From: Anaerostipes caccae L1-92
GTDB lineage: Bacteria > Bacillota > Clostridia > Lachnospirales > Lachnospiraceae
Direction: 5' to 3'
Assembly (NCBI RefSeq): GCF_014467075.1
Contig: NZ_AP023027.1
Location: forward strand, 20,001 to 82,500
Length of the DNA stretch: 62,500 nt
The notes under the pieces were generated by a model that saw only the letters and a list, made by a program, of their open reading frames with translations, did not search any database and was not told the DNA's origin. The position numbers and the translations under genes are program-made. Below, one piece after another: positions 21,610 through 56,343 of the stretch (the first letter of the stretch is position 1; each line of letters starts with the position of its first letter).

Positions 21610-21689
21610 CGGCAGATAGTATATCCATTTTCTGCATGATTGGAGTGAGGCATTCTAAGAGCCGAACAGAAATCATGTAGAAAATGTCA
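21610..21689 (-). repeat. Post-stop hairpin repeat, copy 1
   Basis: Read on the minus strand the element starts with TGACATTTT, where TGA is the stop codon of the rubredoxin-GOGAT gene. It forms a 16-bp stem (21686-21671 with 21641-21626) around the loop motif GTTCGGCTCTTAGAATGCC, then ends AAAATGGATATACTATCTG. Near-identical sequence is at 35754-35840. Confidence 0.75.
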
Positions 21690-23081
21690 CACATGTTCAA
21701 TGTCCGTATACTCTGATATTTCCCTGTTGGTTGTCCTGAGATCTGAAACACTAAGATCATGGATATTTGCGTGGCCGGTAATGCGTCCGAACATTTCCAG
21801 CTCAGACCTGCACACATTCAGGTAGTTGCAGAGCCGTTTGGCCGAATGATCGATATGAAGCCGTTTTCTCAATTCTTCATCCTGGGTGGCAACGCCGACC
21901 GGACACTGTCCTGTGTTGCAGATACGATACTGCTGGCAGGCAGCAGCTACAAGAGCAGCCGAAGCGATCGCCACGGCATCTGCACCCATGGCCAGTGCTT
22001 TCGCAAAATCCCCCGGAAGCCTGAGTCCTCCGGTGATGACCAGATCCATGGAAAGATGATGCCGGTCCAGATATTTTCTGGCTCTGGACAGTGCAAAGAT
22101 CGTAGGGATGGAAGTGTTGTCCTTTAATGTCCGTGGACTGGCACCTGTGGCCCCGCCCCGCCCGTCTATGGTGACAAAGTCGGCATCGGCATATGCAATC
22201 CATTCAAGATCCTGTTCGATATGTCCGGCTGCGATCTTTACGCCTACTGGTCTTCCGCCGGAGGTATCTTTCAGCCAGTCTACCATTGTCTTTAAATCCT
22301 CTTTGGAATTAAGATTCGGAAACTTGGAGGGGCTGATGACATCCTCACCTAAAGGCTTATTTCTGATCTTTGCAATCTCCGGGGTAACTTTGTCTCCGGG
22401 CAGGTGTCCGCCCATGCCGGGCTTGGTTCCCTGTCCGATTTTAATTTCTATGGCATCTGCGCTGCGGAGATTTTCTTCTGTGACACTGTACAGGTTCGGA
22501 ACATATTCAAATATGTACTTGTAAGCTGCCTGCCGTTCTTCGGGAAGGATTCCTCCTTCGCCGCTGCACATGGCGGTCTTGGACATGGCGCTGCCTTTTG
22601 CAAGTGCGGTTTTTAACTCTTTGGATAAGGCACCGAAAGACATATGGGATACATAGATGGGGTGATATATTTCCATTGGCTTTTTGGCTTTTTTACCGAT
22701 CACTGTTTTGGTGTCCACAGGATCGCCCGCATTTAGTGGTGCCGGGTTCAGCTGAGCGCCCATGATTAAAATATCATCCCAGGATATCATGGGCTTTAAG
22801 GTGCCCATGGCATCAACGACTGACGAACCCGTAAGAGCCATCTGATGTATGGCATCCATCTGCGGAAATTCTTTTGAATCAGATTTTGCAAAAGCATCGG
22901 GGTAAGCCAGGGGGTTATCTTTTATGGGCGAAGGAGTTCTTTTGCCTTCTGCGGGTTCAAATTTATCTTTTGATGCCTTGCAGACCGGACATGTATAGTC
23001 AGCTTCCAGCTGGGAAAAGGGGACGGATTCACTTTCCTCGTCGTAGACGTAGCCGCAGATACTGCATTTAAAAATACTCAT
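21687..23081 (-). CDS. Rubredoxin-glutamate synthase-like fusion protein
   Basis: A 464-residue protein. Residues 1-40 are a rubredoxin with iron ligands Cys6, Cys9, Cys31 and Cys34. Residues about 95-450 match the FMN-binding, (beta/alpha)8 synthase domain of glutamate synthase, including 'SHMSFGALSKEL', 'GQGTKPGMGGHLPG', 'GRGGATGASP' and the [3Fe-4S]-type 'CNTGQCPVG'. It lacks the glutaminase domain, so it is not an ordinary GOGAT; electrons may pass from rubredoxin to FMN. The RBS region is GGAGG. A Fur/PerR-like palindrome (23149-23167) lies in the divergent region with tatD. The stop codon is the first base triplet of a hairpin repeat. Confidence 0.85.
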   Translation of the reverse strand: MSIFKCSICGYVYDEESESVPFSQLEADYTCPVCKASKDKFEPAEGKRTPSPIKDNPLAYPDAFAKSDSKEFPQMDAIHQMALTGSSVVDAMGTLKPMISWDDILIMGAQLNPAPLNAGDPVDTKTVIGKKAKKPMEIYHPIYVSHMSFGALSKELKTALAKGSAMSKTAMCSGEGGILPEERQAAYKYIFEYVPNLYSVTEENLRSADAIEIKIGQGTKPGMGGHLPGDKVTPEIAKIRNKPLGEDVISPSKFPNLNSKEDLKTMVDWLKDTSGGRPVGVKIAAGHIEQDLEWIAYADADFVTIDGRGGATGASPRTLKDNTSIPTIFALSRARKYLDRHHLSMDLVITGGLRLPGDFAKALAMGADAVAIASAALVAAACQQYRICNTGQCPVGVATQDEELRKRLHIDHSAKRLCNYLNVCRSELEMFGRITGHANIHDLSVSDLRTTNREISEYTDIEHV

Positions 23082-26264: not shown

Positions 26265-26723
26265 ATGAATGAAAATGAAAAATTTATGAAAGAAGCCATA
26301 AAACAGGCAAAGAAAGCGGCAGCTATAGGGGACGTGCCCATCGGCTGTGTCATAGTATTGGACGGAAAAATCATAGCAAGGGCTTACAATCAAAGAAATA
26401 AGAGAAAGACAACACTGGCCCATGCGGAATTACTGGCGATTGAGAAAGCCAGTAAAAAGACAGGGGACTGGCGGCTTGAAGAATGTACGATGTATATCAC
26501 TCTGGAGCCGTGCCAGATGTGTGCGGGGGCTATAGTCCAGGCGAGAATACCCAAGGTTGTTATCGGGGCGATGAACCCTAAAGCGGGATGTGCAGGCTCC
26601 ATTCTCAATATCCTTCAGAGGGAAGAATTCAACCATCAGGCAGAGATTGAATCGGGAGTCCTCAGAGAAGAATGCAGCCATATGATGAGCGATTTTTTCC
26701 GGCAGCTGAGAAAAAAGGGTTGA
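26265..26723 (+). CDS. tadA: tRNA-specific adenosine deaminase
   Basis: A 152-residue zinc enzyme that converts A34 of tRNA-Arg(ACG) to inosine. The cytidine-deaminase-fold signature is complete: His53 and Glu55 in 'AHAELLAI' and Cys83/Cys86 in 'EPCQMCAGA'. The C-terminal helix is typical. RBS CGGAGGAAG. The stop codon TGA (26721-26723) is the first triplet of a large hairpin repeat. Confidence 0.94.
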   Translation: MNENEKFMKEAIKQAKKAAAIGDVPIGCVIVLDGKIIARAYNQRNKRKTTLAHAELLAIEKASKKTGDWRLEECTMYITLEPCQMCAGAIVQARIPKVVIGAMNPKAGCAGSILNILQREEFNHQAEIESGVLREECSHMMSDFFRQLRKKG

Positions 26724-26942
26724 CATTTTGACCAGTTTTCCGGCTTGCTGTCTCAGAGATGTAAGATTTTCTAACCTTCAGCAAAGTCTCTCCGGCGGCC
26801 CGTTCGGAACTCGCTGACGCTCAGACAGCCTCACTGTGCTCTGCACACCGCCTCCGAGCCTTTGCTGAAAGAAGAAAAACTAACATCTCTTCGAATGCAA
26901 GGCCTCCAAACTGGTCAAAATGGACGTAATATCTGCTGGAGC
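26721..26942 (+). repeat. Post-stop hairpin repeat, copy 2 (long form)
   Basis: The element begins with the tadA stop codon in TGACATTTT. It folds as a long imperfect hairpin. The outer arms pair CATTTTGACCAGTTT (26724) with AAACTGGTCAAAATG (ending at 26922). A middle arm pairs around 26756-26786 with 26868-26890. The loop region contains GTTCGGAACTC and GCCTCACT. The tail is GGACGTAATATCTGCTGGAG. Arms differ completely from copies 1 and 3 yet still pair. Confidence 0.75.
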
Positions 26943-26960
26943 AGGCTGTTTAGAGACAAA

Positions 26961-27050
26961 AGGTGCTACCTGTGATAGTTTTTCTCTATTGTCGGAAGGA
27001 GGCCTTTCCAGAGCCGACTGGAGATAATGGAGAAAAACTCATAGGTATTT
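26961..27050 (-). repeat. Post-stop hairpin repeat, diverged copy 4
   Basis: On the minus strand, directly after the corA stop codon, GAGAAAAACTCATAGGT (27030-27046) pairs with ACCTGTGATAGTTTTTCTC (26968-26986), allowing a bulge. The loop reads GTCGGCTCTGGAAAGGCCTC, resembling the loop of the other copies. The conserved tail is not preserved. Confidence 0.55.
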
Positions 27051-34637: not shown

Positions 34638-34721
34638 AATAAACTTCCTTCGGGCTTGGCGCGCTTTGCTTCATAGGTTACAATAGTTATTGTATGTATG
34701 TTGTTTGAAATGGAGGGTCTT

Positions 34722-35750
34722 ATGAGTACGATTACGGTGATTGGAGCAGGAGTGATGGCATCAAGCCTTTCCTTTCCTGCTGTGGAAAACGGAAATGAGA
34801 TGCGTCTTACGGGGACACCGCTGGACAGGGAGATTATTGATTCGGTAAAGGCAAACCGTTACCATCCCTCACTGAAAAGAACACTGCCCGAGGGCGTAAA
34901 GGCATTTCAGATCGAAGAGCTGGATGCCGCGCTTGACGGATGTGATGCAGTGATTCTGGGAGTCAGCAGCTTTGGGGTAGATTGGTTTATTGAAAATGCC
35001 CTGGCAAAGATACCGGATAAAATACCGGTGATCGCAGTGACTAAGGGTGTTGAAGTATATGACGACGGGATGGTAAAGACGTTTCCCGAACTGTTTGCAT
35101 CAAATGTAGAGAAGGGTAAGAGCCACGAATTTTGTGCCATCGGAGGGCCCTGCAGATGCTATGAGCTGGCAGATCATGATGATACGAGAGTCGCATTCTG
35201 CGGAAAGAACATGGAAGTCCTTGAGTTCTTTAAAAAGCTTTTAGAGAGGCCGTATTATCACATTGATCTGACACAGGATGTGGCCGGGCTGGAGATTGCG
35301 GTTGCCCTTAAAAATGCATATGCCCTTGGAGTCAGCCTTGGCATCGGTCTGGAAGAAAAGCAGCAGAAATATATGTGCAACACGCAGTCTGCACTGTTTG
35401 GACAGAGCTCTTATGAGATCATGAAATTTGTCCAGTACATGGGAGGAAATGTTGAAAACTCCATTCACGGAATCGGCGACCTGTATGTGACCGTCATGGG
35501 CGGCCGTTCAAAGGAAATCGGCAAAAGACTTGGAGCTGGAATGCCATATGAACAGGCTATGGAAGAACTCAAAGGTGTGACTTTAGAATCAGTGGTCATC
35601 GCCCGGCGGGCGGCGAAAGCTGTTAGAATTCTTTCTGAGAAAAATCAGATAAAAAAAGAAGATTTTCCTCTGATTTTACATATTGATGATGTTTTACAGC
35701 ATGGATCAATGCTCGATATACCTTGGAAAAAGTTCAGAGTAAATGAATAA
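34722..35750 (+). CDS. GpsA-like NAD(P)-dependent dehydrogenase, paralogue 2
   Basis: A 342-residue homologue of the protein at 14903-15946 along its whole length. It has the same altered Rossmann loop ('GAGVMASS' for GAGxWG), 'GGPCRCYEL', 'KNAYALGVSLGIGL' and 'GIGDLYVTVMGG'. The start is the ATG at 34722 after GGAGGG. It is 84 bases after the zinc dehydrogenase gene. If it reduces DHAP from the aldolase reaction it would make glycerol-3-phosphate; alternatively it acts on the operon's own polyol phosphate. A hairpin repeat starts three bases after its stop codon. Confidence 0.82.
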   Translation: MSTITVIGAGVMASSLSFPAVENGNEMRLTGTPLDREIIDSVKANRYHPSLKRTLPEGVKAFQIEELDAALDGCDAVILGVSSFGVDWFIENALAKIPDKIPVIAVTKGVEVYDDGMVKTFPELFASNVEKGKSHEFCAIGGPCRCYELADHDDTRVAFCGKNMEVLEFFKKLLERPYYHIDLTQDVAGLEIAVALKNAYALGVSLGIGLEEKQQKYMCNTQSALFGQSSYEIMKFVQYMGGNVENSIHGIGDLYVTVMGGRSKEIGKRLGAGMPYEQAMEELKGVTLESVVIARRAAKAVRILSEKNQIKKEDFPLILHIDDVLQHGSMLDIPWKKFRVNE

Positions 35751-35753
35751 GTA

Positions 35754-35840
35754 TGACATTTTCCACATGATTTCCGTTCGGCTCTTAGAATGCCTCACTC
35801 CAATCATGTGGAAAATGGACGTAATGTCTGTTGGAGAAGG
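35754..35840 (+). repeat. Post-stop hairpin repeat, copy 3
   Basis: TGACATTTT begins three bases after the stop of the GpsA-like gene. CATTTTCCACATGATT (35757-35772) and AATCATGTGGAAAATG (35802-35817) form a perfect 16-bp stem. The loop has GTTCGGCTCTTAGAATGCC followed by TCACT, and the tail is GGACGTAATGTCTGTTGGAG. It is nearly the same sequence as copy 1 on the opposite strand at 21610-21689. Confidence 0.8.
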
Positions 35841-35867
35841 GGCACTGTCAAAAAAAGTGCCTCTTTT
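35841..35867 (+). terminator. Terminator after the GpsA-like paralogue 2
   Basis: GGCACT (35841-35846) / AGTGCC (35856-35861) with TCTTTTC after it. It directly follows the hairpin repeat and may end the galactitol-type operon before the SDR gene. Confidence 0.65.
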
Positions 35868-35870
35868 CGA

Positions 35871-35988
35871 AAGTTATTTACCGCTATTGTAGGAGCGCAT
35901 TTCAAAAGCGCGACGGAAATAGCGGTAAATAACTTATTAAGTTCAGATTCTATATCTCCGGGACGGCATGAAGGCGTTCCGGAGATAT
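35871..35988. repeat. Two further perfect hairpins before the SDR gene
   Basis: AAGTTATTTACCGCTATT (35871-35888) pairs perfectly with 35918-35935 around a GCGC-containing loop. ATATCTCCGG (35952-35961) pairs with CCGGAGATAT (35979-35988), 22 bases before the SDR start codon. With copy 3 and the terminator they make four stacked hairpins in 235 bases. Confidence 0.65.
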
Positions 35989-45407: not shown

Positions 45408-45422
45408 TGAAAGGTGGAGAAT

Positions 45423-47648
45423 ATGGCTGAAGAAACAAAAGAGACAAAAAAAGTCATTTCCAAAGAGAAAAAACCCAAAAAGAAGAAAAAGAAAAGAAAG
45501 ATTCTTTTAAAGATCTCCATTGTTTTTCTTCTTCTGGTGGTTATCGGCTGGTTCACCATCGGAATGAAAGTCATGAAGCTGAGGGCAGAGGCTAAGGATC
45601 TGGTAGCCAACACTTCAGAGCAGACATTTAAGGCAACCCAGACGAGTGTCGTCTATGATACGAATGGGAAGGTGATCACCAAACTGAAAGGTGAGAAGGA
45701 TGTCTATTATCTGAAGTATAAAGATCTGCCGGTTTATGCGGTAGCGGCAATGATTTCCGTGGAGGACAATAATTTTTACAAACATAATGGAGTAGACTTC
45801 AGGGGTATCGCCAGAGCAGCAGTATCCTTTGTTACAAATAAGGGAGAAGTTACTCAGGGAGGAAGCACGATCACACAGCAGCTGGCAAGGACTGTATTCC
45901 TGACTCGGGAGATTTCCTGGCAGCGCAAGGTCAAAGAAATGTTTGTGGCATGGGGTCTGGAGAAGGAGTATTCCAAGGACCAGATCATGGAGTTTTACCT
46001 GAACAACGTTTATTTTGCAAATGGCTATTACGGAATTCAGGCTGCCAGCAAAGGCTATTTTGATAAGGATGCCAAGGACCTGACCATGTCAGAAGCGGCA
46101 TTTTTGTGTGCGGTTCCGAATGCGCCGAACATGTATGAACCCTATCATCATAAAGAAAAGACATTGACAAGGCGAGACAAGATCCTCAAAGATATGTATA
46201 AGCAGAACCTGATCACCAAATCTCAGAGAGATGAAGCTCTGAGAGAAAAGATCACACTGAAAAAGAAAAAGACTGAACAGAAAAGAAATTATATTGAAAC
46301 TTATGTAATTCACAGTGCTACAAAGGCACTGATGGAAAAGCAGGGATTTGAGTTCCGTTATGTGTTTGACTCTGACGAAGACAAACAGGATTACGATGAA
46401 AAATATAATAAGTCTTATGCTGAGTGTAAGAGAACCTTATACAGTGCAGGATATCAGATTCATACATCCATTGACCTGAATGCTCAGAAGGAACTTCAAA
46501 GCAGTATCGACAATGCTCTGAGCGGATATACGGAGAAGGATAAGAACAAGGTTTACAAAGTCCAGGGCGCCGGCGTCTGTATTGACAATGAGACAGGCAA
46601 GGTAGCAGCCATCGTAGGAGGCAGATATCAGAAAAATGCAGGATTAGGCCTGAATCGTGCTTATCAGAGTCCGAGACAGCCGGGAAGTGCAATTAAGCCG
46701 ATCCTTGTCTATGCTCCTGCTATGGAGAGGGGATATGGACCGGGTTCTATTGTAAATGACAATCCAATGAACCCCAAAGACAAACACAGGGTCCGGAATT
46801 CCGGAGGTTCCTATTCAGGAAGTATAACACTGAGGCGTGCATTGGAGAAATCAAGCAACGTGGCTACGATGAGGCTTTACGAGGAGATTGGGCCGAAATC
46901 CGCTCTCCGGTATCTGGAAAAGATGAACTTTAAGAGTCTCGATGAAAATGACTATAAGTATTATACAACCTGCCTCGGCGGTTTCACCTATGGAACTACG
47001 GCTGAGGAGATGGCCAGCGGATATGCGGCACTTGCCAATCAGGGTGTGTTCAGAGATCCGACCTGTATTGTGAAGATTGAGGACTCTGACGGTGAGACTG
47101 TGGTCTCCAATCCATCCAAGAAAAGAACGGTTTACTCAGCCAATACGGCTTCTATGATGAGCAGCGTTTTAAAGAGTGTTATCACCAACGGTACAGGACG
47201 GGGGGCAAAGGTTCCCAATGTAGATACCGCGGGAAAAACAGGTACTACAACAGACAACAAGGACGGCTGGTTCTGCGGATATACCCCTTACTACACAACT
47301 GCAGTGTGGGTAGGAAGGGATGACAGCAGGGTAATGGCCAACCTGAGCGGTTCCGGTTATCCTAAGACTATCTGGAGCAATTTTATGAATGAACTCCACA
47401 AAGAGTTTTCAGGAGGCAAAAAGCTGAATTCCTATGAAGGCGGAGGCGGCACAGACATGCCGGCTACAGGCCAGACAACAGCAGGTACGACAGAAAAGGG
47501 AAGTACGAAAGGTACAACCCAGACAACGACTCAGGCGACTACCCAGGCCACAACCCAGGCGACCACTCAGGCAACGACCCAGGCCACAACAGCAGCGACA
47601 CAGCAGCAGACCGGCGATGACCGGCGCGGTGCCGGAAATGATGAATAA
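45423..47648 (+). CDS. Class A penicillin-binding protein (transglycosylase/transpeptidase)
   Basis: A 741-residue bifunctional peptidoglycan synthase. There is a Lys-rich cytoplasmic start (KKPKKKKKKRK) and one membrane helix (about 29-50). The GT51 transglycosylase domain has 'ISVEDNNFYKHNGVDF' and 'GGSTITQQLAR'. The transpeptidase domain has nucleophile Ser in 'SSNVATM', 'SGG/SGS' blocks and 'KTGTT'. It ends in a low-complexity Thr/Gln/Ala tail with repeated 'TTQA'. The start is the ATG at 45423 after GGTGGAG. It is third in the operon with the SbcDC-like gene, a rare partnership. Length is normal for PBP1a types. Confidence 0.92.
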   Translation: MAEETKETKKVISKEKKPKKKKKKRKILLKISIVFLLLVVIGWFTIGMKVMKLRAEAKDLVANTSEQTFKATQTSVVYDTNGKVITKLKGEKDVYYLKYKDLPVYAVAAMISVEDNNFYKHNGVDFRGIARAAVSFVTNKGEVTQGGSTITQQLARTVFLTREISWQRKVKEMFVAWGLEKEYSKDQIMEFYLNNVYFANGYYGIQAASKGYFDKDAKDLTMSEAAFLCAVPNAPNMYEPYHHKEKTLTRRDKILKDMYKQNLITKSQRDEALREKITLKKKKTEQKRNYIETYVIHSATKALMEKQGFEFRYVFDSDEDKQDYDEKYNKSYAECKRTLYSAGYQIHTSIDLNAQKELQSSIDNALSGYTEKDKNKVYKVQGAGVCIDNETGKVAAIVGGRYQKNAGLGLNRAYQSPRQPGSAIKPILVYAPAMERGYGPGSIVNDNPMNPKDKHRVRNSGGSYSGSITLRRALEKSSNVATMRLYEEIGPKSALRYLEKMNFKSLDENDYKYYTTCLGGFTYGTTAEEMASGYAALANQGVFRDPTCIVKIEDSDGETVVSNPSKKRTVYSANTASMMSSVLKSVITNGTGRGAKVPNVDTAGKTGTTTDNKDGWFCGYTPYYTTAVWVGRDDSRVMANLSGSGYPKTIWSNFMNELHKEFSGGKKLNSYEGGGGTDMPATGQTTAGTTEKGSTKGTTQTTTQATTQATTQATTQATTQATTAATQQQTGDDRRGAGNDE

Positions 47649-55465: not shown

Positions 55466-55866
55466 CTATAATAGTAACTGAAATAATATGGAAATAGTGA
55501 AACATATTCGCAAGTTTCGTTAAAAAATGCAGAAAGACCAATGTTATTATGAATTCATGGTACTCTCTGCTCACTGAAGCTCAGATACTTATAATCTTAG
55601 CTTTTAACAAGAGGGGTAGATTCAACCATTAAAGCAGGTTTCCGCACCCGCTTAACCAATTTTTTAGAATGGTTTGTGATTTGGATGGTTTTCCTTTCTT
55701 TAATATTATAATAGTTAATATGTTCTTAGGAATAATGATTGAAAAAATACCCCTCTATAATAGAAACTGTTTTTAGAGCAAAAAGGTGAATATTTTTTAA
55801 AAAGTGCTGTCAAATAATTTTTAACAGCACTTTTTTAAATTCAGTAAGGATTTTAATATTTATTAA
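55466..55866. other. AT-rich non-coding stretch with one terminator
   Basis: No open frame with a ribosome site was found. AAGTGCTGT (55802-55810) / ACAGCACTT (55824-55832) with A and T runs on either side forms a bidirectional terminator. On the minus strand this would end the secreted-protein gene at 55867-56343. Several TATAAT-like boxes (about 55465, 55705, 55755) have no clear gene to serve. Confidence 0.5.
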
Positions 55867-56343
55867 TTATTTTCTGGTTTTTGTTTTTGTAAATGTGTCT
55901 GAATTTATAAGTTTTCCATTTTTAGATTTATAAATATAGGCCTTGCTATAAACTCGATACTTATATCCTTTAGACACATAGTAGCTTCTACTGTACATAT
56001 TATCTGACTTACTAGTACATGTACCACTCGTTAAAGTTGTCCAGGTTTTATTTTTATAACGTTGAAGTTTCATTGTAATTTTACAATAGTATTTCGAATT
56101 ACTTGCACATACAAGAGTGTAAAAATGAGCAATACCTGATTTGTCAATTTGCAGATCTATATAGGCGTCACGAAATCCTGTCCAACTATTAGACATAAAA
56201 TTGGGTTTTAACATAAATGAAGTTATCGATTGATTACTGTATGAAACCTCGGGTGTAGAGCTAGCTTCTGCAGGAACTGAAATTAACAGAATTGATAGTA
56301 CTAAAACAAGTGACATTATTAAATGTTTTAAATATTGTTTCAT
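55867..56343 (-). CDS. Small secreted protein, function unknown
   Basis: A 158-residue protein with a clear signal peptide: 'MKQYLKHLI', a hydrophobic core, and a likely cleavage after 'VPAEA' (about residue 27). The mature part is rich in Ser, Thr, Tyr and Lys, with a repeated 'SKGYKYRVYSKAYIYKSKNGK' texture split over short beta strands. No catalytic motif is seen. The base composition is more AT-rich than the neighbouring operons. The start is the ATG at 56343 after GGGAGG. It sits between two sigma/anti-sigma modules and could be a target of one of them. Confidence 0.75.
   Translation of the reverse strand: MKQYLKHLIMSLVLVLSILLISVPAEASSTPEVSYSNQSITSFMLKPNFMSNSWTGFRDAYIDLQIDKSGIAHFYTLVCASNSKYYCKITMKLQRYKNKTWTTLTSGTCTSKSDNMYSRSYYVSKGYKYRVYSKAYIYKSKNGKLINSDTFTKTKTRK

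Follow-up and report, generated by a model that had tools for sequence, protein, structure and literature searches.

A probable family of small mobile DNA elements with hairpin ends in Anaerostipes

Three large hairpins with a common start (TGACATTTT), loop core (GTTCGG...GCCTCACT) and tail (AAAATGGANNTANTNTCTG) lie at gene ends in a 62,500-base stretch (the window, G000:C1:20001-82500) of a chromosome of 3,590,719 bases, from a member of the genus Anaerostipes close to A. hominis. They raise the question of whether such structures are kept as RNA at the ends of messages or are the termini of something that moves as DNA; the original prediction had offered both alternatives. We compared the window's genome (G000) with that of A. 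hominis (G254) and with a third carrier Anaerostipes genome (G255). We consider it very likely that the hairpins belong to a new family of small non-autonomous, mosaic, hairpin-ended mobile DNA elements, present in three of the 11 sampled Anaerostipes genomes, that works like BOX, REPIN and MITE repeats.

Elements with two hairpin ends

The three predicted hairpins are all present, each with its start, core and tail, where 0.01 core matches would be expected in the window by chance. As whole hairpins all three fold better than their shuffles (z -3.3, -3.8 and -6.9); the inner loop of the tadA copy, taken on its own, does not (z -1.1). The coordinates first given for them, however, span only the first hairpin, since a full element consists of a linker flanked by two hairpin ends that are inverted relative to each other.

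The element at tadA (the gene name is that of the original prediction) occupies 26722..27040 (+), between tadA and a convergent gene, and starts within the tadA stop codon. Its left end, 26722..26923 (+, right border approximate), is a long hairpin form, H1L, with the core GTTCGG..GCCTCACT and a fold z of -6.89. Its right end, H2, at 26977..27040 (-), is inverted relative to H1 and was matched by our covariance model R1 at G000 46973-47043 (-), that is, window 26973-27043. The TGA at 26721..26723 (+), which ends the reading frame 26265-26723, is made of a host T and the element's first GA, where A. hominis reads GGA TAA. The AT on the right of the element, at 27041..27042 (+), is the target duplication, whose left copy now reads TT. 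The arms of this copy had been described as wholly different; they do differ, but they are not unique, being those of a long sub-form, the first 30 bases of which are found at 19 places in the genome with at most three mismatches.

A complete standard element of 181 bp lies at 35755..35935 (+), four bases past the TAA stop of the gene 34698-35750, and has 97% identity over the length of a 186-base query. It has an H1 left end at 35755..35817 (+; fold z -3.83; R1 match G000 55752-55821) and an inverted H2 right end at 35872..35935 (-; R1 match G000 55868-55938 (-)), and is bordered by AT on the left at 35753..35754 (+) and on the right at 35936-35937. As predicted, its TGA begins at 35754, three bases past the TAA (35748-35750), whereas the TGA is the stop codon itself at 26721-26723 (+) and at 21689-21687 (-). 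The latter stop, of the gene 21687-23081, belongs to a partnerless single left end (H1 plus tail) at 21613..21688 (-). A short tandem repeat with 12/24/36-base units, at window 47514-47590, is a separate observation, near the 3' end of the open reading frame 45414-47648.

The elements are modular. One side is H1 or H1L and the other is H2 or another H1 form; H1 is either short or long (H1L), and H2 has several arm types. H1 reads GA, arm, TTTCCG, loop, CTCCAAT, arm, and H2 follows the same plan from the opposite end; aligning H1 with reversed H2 gives 43 identities, 15 mismatches and 11 gap positions, better than all of 1000 shuffles. As in a MITE, the ends are imperfect inverted terminal repeats, with R1 matching both of them in opposite orientation. 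Hairpin ends measure ~64-200 nt and begin AT-GA. The three genomes yielded 76 paired copies, of which 56 are well set once 20 rows are removed for pairing H2 with H2 or for ends that are mis-set or decayed; element length is 179-183 bp in 46 of these 56, and ~319 or 360 bp where a long hairpin is present.

Copies, insertion sites and stop codons

The core pattern GTTCGGN{5,30}GCCTCACT occurs 50 times in the chromosome, while the reversed pattern occurs 0 times forward and once in reverse. BLAST of one full copy against the genome returned 93 matches, of which about 15 span 184-186 bases at ≥94%, and some copies are 99-100% identical to each other. R1, built from 17 ends, found 101 ends in the chromosome at E 0.01 (109 at E 10), which with 19 long starts gives 120 ends, far more than the three copies of the original prediction and with arms that covary. 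A distance rule of 110-430 bases resolves these ends into 35 two-ended elements, 24 of them with 184-187 bp between outer model ends, and 50 single ends. The remaining eight of the 11 Anaerostipes genomes lack the element; the carriers have 101 (G000), 53 (A. hominis) and at least 150 (G255) ends. In samples of Lachnospiraceae only the window's own genome was matched, as one of 250 genomes by DNA and one of 200 by model, under stricter filters. The phage and plasmid collections gave no match at E 0.01, and the viral contigs gave one exact core, belonging to a two-ended copy (L171 6979-7163); the contig, IMGVR_UViG_2835226800_000003, may represent a prophage of one of the carriers.

A second palindromic repeat, of 61 bp (TATACCTTATCGCGC..GGTGTGCCCTATGGGTAT), occurs singly or in tandem (L104 1663-1905; L017 1660-1725; G000:C1:1051390-1051632). 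It is found in exactly the same three of 11 Anaerostipes genomes, with 31, 44 and 50 matches, adjoins the element at AT in several copies, and may be another module.

Corresponding sites were compared in A. hominis, where flanks are mostly 90-95% identical; 33 of 39 prepared flanks were covered, and sites beyond those named below gave no usable match. At nine junctions (L002, L003, L007, L010, L013, L024, L038, L041 and L044) A. hominis is without the element, although at L013 it has another copy further on; the window's 35755..35935 element is missing from A. hominis. Seven sites (L011, L017, L037, L039, L040, L045 and L104) have the same kind of end in both, as does the second end in L004. 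Four sites share the junction but have another end module in A. hominis (L004, L030, L033 and L035, against L150, L158, L157 and L145); these are not explained by simple insertion and may reflect replacement, inversion or repeated insertion. Inversion in situ lacks support at these junctions, of which L035/L145 was followed through by eye: its right side is alike and its left end different. L027 looks like an insertion into the AT next to an earlier copy. L001, L006, L021 and L032 hold remnants or are ambiguous in A. hominis, and the site of the 21.6-kb single end is ambiguous there too.

The tadA junction shows what an insertion does. A. hominis has GGGATAAGTATT where the window has GGGTT-[319 bp]-ATAGGTATT; the element entered within the stop codon, the AT was doubled (with the left copy since changed) and the TAA was replaced by the element's own TGA. 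More generally, AT stands on both sides of 44 of the 76 paired copies. Of the 56 well-set copies, 40 share this arrangement and 16 lack AT on one side or both; the left AT is preceded by Y in 47 and the right AT followed by R in 36. TA as the duplicated dinucleotide was rejected, because CAT on the left of a copy is compatible with AT alone. These flanks, together with comparison sites L002, L027 and L044, indicate a 2-bp target-site duplication such as a MITE would leave, although the sites are few, L002 needs one later change and the right end at L044 is joined to another repeat. Genome-wide copies, junctions empty in A. hominis and the AT duplication thus bear out one of the two alternatives first offered, that of a non-autonomous mobile element at gene ends.

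These sequence comparisons lead us to envisage a trans-acting enzyme that would recognise the folded or palindromic ends and insert the element at Y-AT-R sites, duplicating 2 bp. As both ends begin with GA, an insertion just behind the T of a stop codon would create a TGA whichever end came first. Gene ends would be favoured both for the presence of the target and for this shared GA. The single ends, tandem arrays and mosaics could have arisen afterwards, through deletions and through insertion into copies already in place.

How strongly are gene ends favoured? The hairpins had been described as placed exactly at gene stop codons, which turns out to be true of a minority. With gene ends placed by a simple codon-usage gene caller, the G000 loci gave 112 ends, or 104 after removal of seven that adjoin another end and one without a gene; 22 of the 104 form a stop codon (19 H1/H1L and three H2; 20 TGA and two TAA). 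For comparison, the window plus 19 loci of ~10 kb contain 568 Y-AT-R sites outside coding sequence, of which 32 (5.6%) are stop codons. The enrichment is 3.8-fold (p 7e-8), in a test that counts both ends of one element though they are not independent and that ignores survival. The excess is weak in G255 (9 of 96 ends, p 0.09); A. hominis has 6 of 24 (p 0.002), many of its loci having been chosen via G000 flanks.

One could argue from this excess that the element does not owe its placement to target motif and survival but actively targets stop codons or terminator regions. The proteins would agree in four of six informative comparisons, having the same length as at the comparison site at L002, L007, L013 and L038, but in the other two they are shortened, by two codons at L010 and by six at L132 (compared with L102). 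Furthermore, the majority of ends lie elsewhere, the excess in G255 is weak as noted, and the null takes no account of counter-selection on insertions in front of genes, a factor that would increase the proportion expected at stop codons. We regard active targeting as unlikely, and prefer a target motif combined with survival.

Paired arms and the case for an RNA role

The other alternative first offered was that of a dispersed 3'-UTR element, whose hairpin, just downstream of the stop codon, would protect, terminate or regulate the preceding message, with its arms held in pairing by selection at the RNA level. The arms do pair and covary. In a 17-row alignment (one row faulty) 94.8% of cells are paired, and the covariation score was reached by none of 500 shuffles. 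A second alignment, of 44 exact rows (22 H1 and 22 H2, random draws from 83 and 48), has 92.6% paired, 152 double-change cells and a score of 0.444, each reached by none of 500 shuffles, compared with 38-48% paired in slid controls; measures counting pairs or types were reached by 51 and 165 of 500 shuffles. The double changes count few events, as many of them separate H1 from H2. An RNA role would also account for the stable folds, for the G.U pairs of the short inner stem (six cells), and for the service of H1 rather than H2 as the stop codon: among 3'-facing ends, 19 of 42 H1 against 3 of 21 H2 in G000 (Fisher p 0.024), and 8 of 23 against 1 of 29 in G255 (Fisher p 0.007).

On the sense strand, however, outer-arm mismatches are more often A.C than G.U. 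Read inward, the outer arms of the 83 distinct H1 hairpins hold 74 A.C, 15 G.T and 30 other mismatches, and those of 47 H2 hairpins hold 37, 7 and 8. A single column contributes 42 of the H1 A.C mismatches, probably through one inherited change. A.C is the mismatch in all six outer-arm columns, counting both ends, where mismatches recur in at least five copies. This bias speaks against selection acting on the outer arms as sense RNA, and would suit a hairpin formed by the strand that terminates 3' at the end of the element; it is suggestive only, as the copies are related.

Nor are copies at stop codons better paired: of 15 pairs, a mean of 1.08 is broken in 26 copies at stop codons and 1.21 in 33 copies upstream of genes, and stop-codon copies do not differ from all others together (p 0.30). 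Moreover, 23 of the H1 ends are turned towards a gene's 5' side. An intrinsic terminator was rejected, since a scan allowing loops of 3-8 bases saw nothing like one in any of the three elements, and so was a known RNA family, none of the three copies having an Rfam match at gathering score (the 26.7- and 35.7-kb copies gave only weak matches, at E 0.42-0.98). A sense-strand RNA role for the hairpins is not supported, and we think it very improbable that a 3'-UTR element explains them. The case is a caution that covarying hairpins at gene ends should not be read automatically as regulatory RNA.

Mobilisation and relation to known repeats

If these are mobile elements, what moves them? Among the Y1 and DDE_3 families we found no mobilising enzyme: the Y1 transposase domain (PF01797) had no match in G000 or A. 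hominis, both rich in copies, and DDE_3 none in all 11 Anaerostipes genomes. G255 has three Y1 loci, with no element end in the fetched flanks (~1.5 kb each side). A search for an autonomous copy or parent insertion sequence among the 120 ends found no inward-facing single ends 0.43-6 kb apart. One end pair 1.1 kb apart was rejected as an autonomous copy, since a CRISPR-like array lies between and the right end pairs with a long form. We record separately that L015 1770-2390 is a CRISPR-like array with a ~30-nt repeat, GATAAACAGTAACAAGAGTTGTATTGAAAT, between element ends.

A more specific version of the mobile-element reading is that an enzyme other than Y1 recognises the ends by shape, as folded single-strand hairpins, which would leave the arms free to change, with ends that would restore a disrupted stop. 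The six recurrent A.C columns support it, as they would be wobble pairs on the strand with its 3' end at the element terminus. We put this forward as a speculative proposal, and a rather doubtful one; should the enzyme be found, and should it read hairpin shape and not sequence, it would represent a new transposition mechanism. A REPIN or BIME moved by a REP-associated Y1 (HUH) transposase has in its favour the inverted palindromes with a spacer, the compensatory arm changes and the stop-codon supply described for REPs, but is extremely unlikely given the absence of PF01797 from G000 and A. hominis, the Y1 loci of G255 without ends, and ends that start AT-GA and not GTAG/CGTC, on hairpins of ~64-200 nt against 20-40.

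The Anaerostipes hairpin-ended repeat was not found in Rfam or in searches of open-licence papers naming the genus. With MITEs such as RUP and Correia (PMC2229807), it shares a length of ~100-200 bp, inverted ends, target-site duplication and many copies; it differs in its target, AT not TA, in outermost arms that are not conserved between end types, and in that the search of single ends yielded no parent insertion sequence. The CIR elements of Caulobacter and Brucella, whose mobility the same review leaves open, likewise have two long stem-loop arms and a linker (PMC2229807), though in other hosts, and the likeness is by description and not by sequence.

REP, REPIN and BIME repeats too are inverted palindromic units with a spacer, lying near 3' ends (PMC3116915, PMC3733652), with compensatory arm changes in REPINs (PMC3116915) and a stop codon supplied by the repeat in GTAG REPs (PMC3733652). 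The Anaerostipes element is such an inverted palindrome pair with compensatory changes, but it lacks a Y1 transposase in two of three carriers, lacks the GTAG/CGTC tag and has longer ends. BOX of Streptococcus pneumoniae is likewise a small, modular, interspersed repeat that forms stem-loops if transcribed, and it encodes the 3' stop codon in 36 of 58 overlapping genes, for which its authors report no strong evidence of shortened proteins (PMC3049150). BOX is set apart, by description, by its other host and by the Anaerostipes ends each being their own hairpin, with arms that differ and covary. The supply of stop codons by repeats is thus already published for BOX and REP, and the Anaerostipes element offers a clear gut-bacterial case of small repeats that settle at gene ends, where their first bases restore the stop codon.
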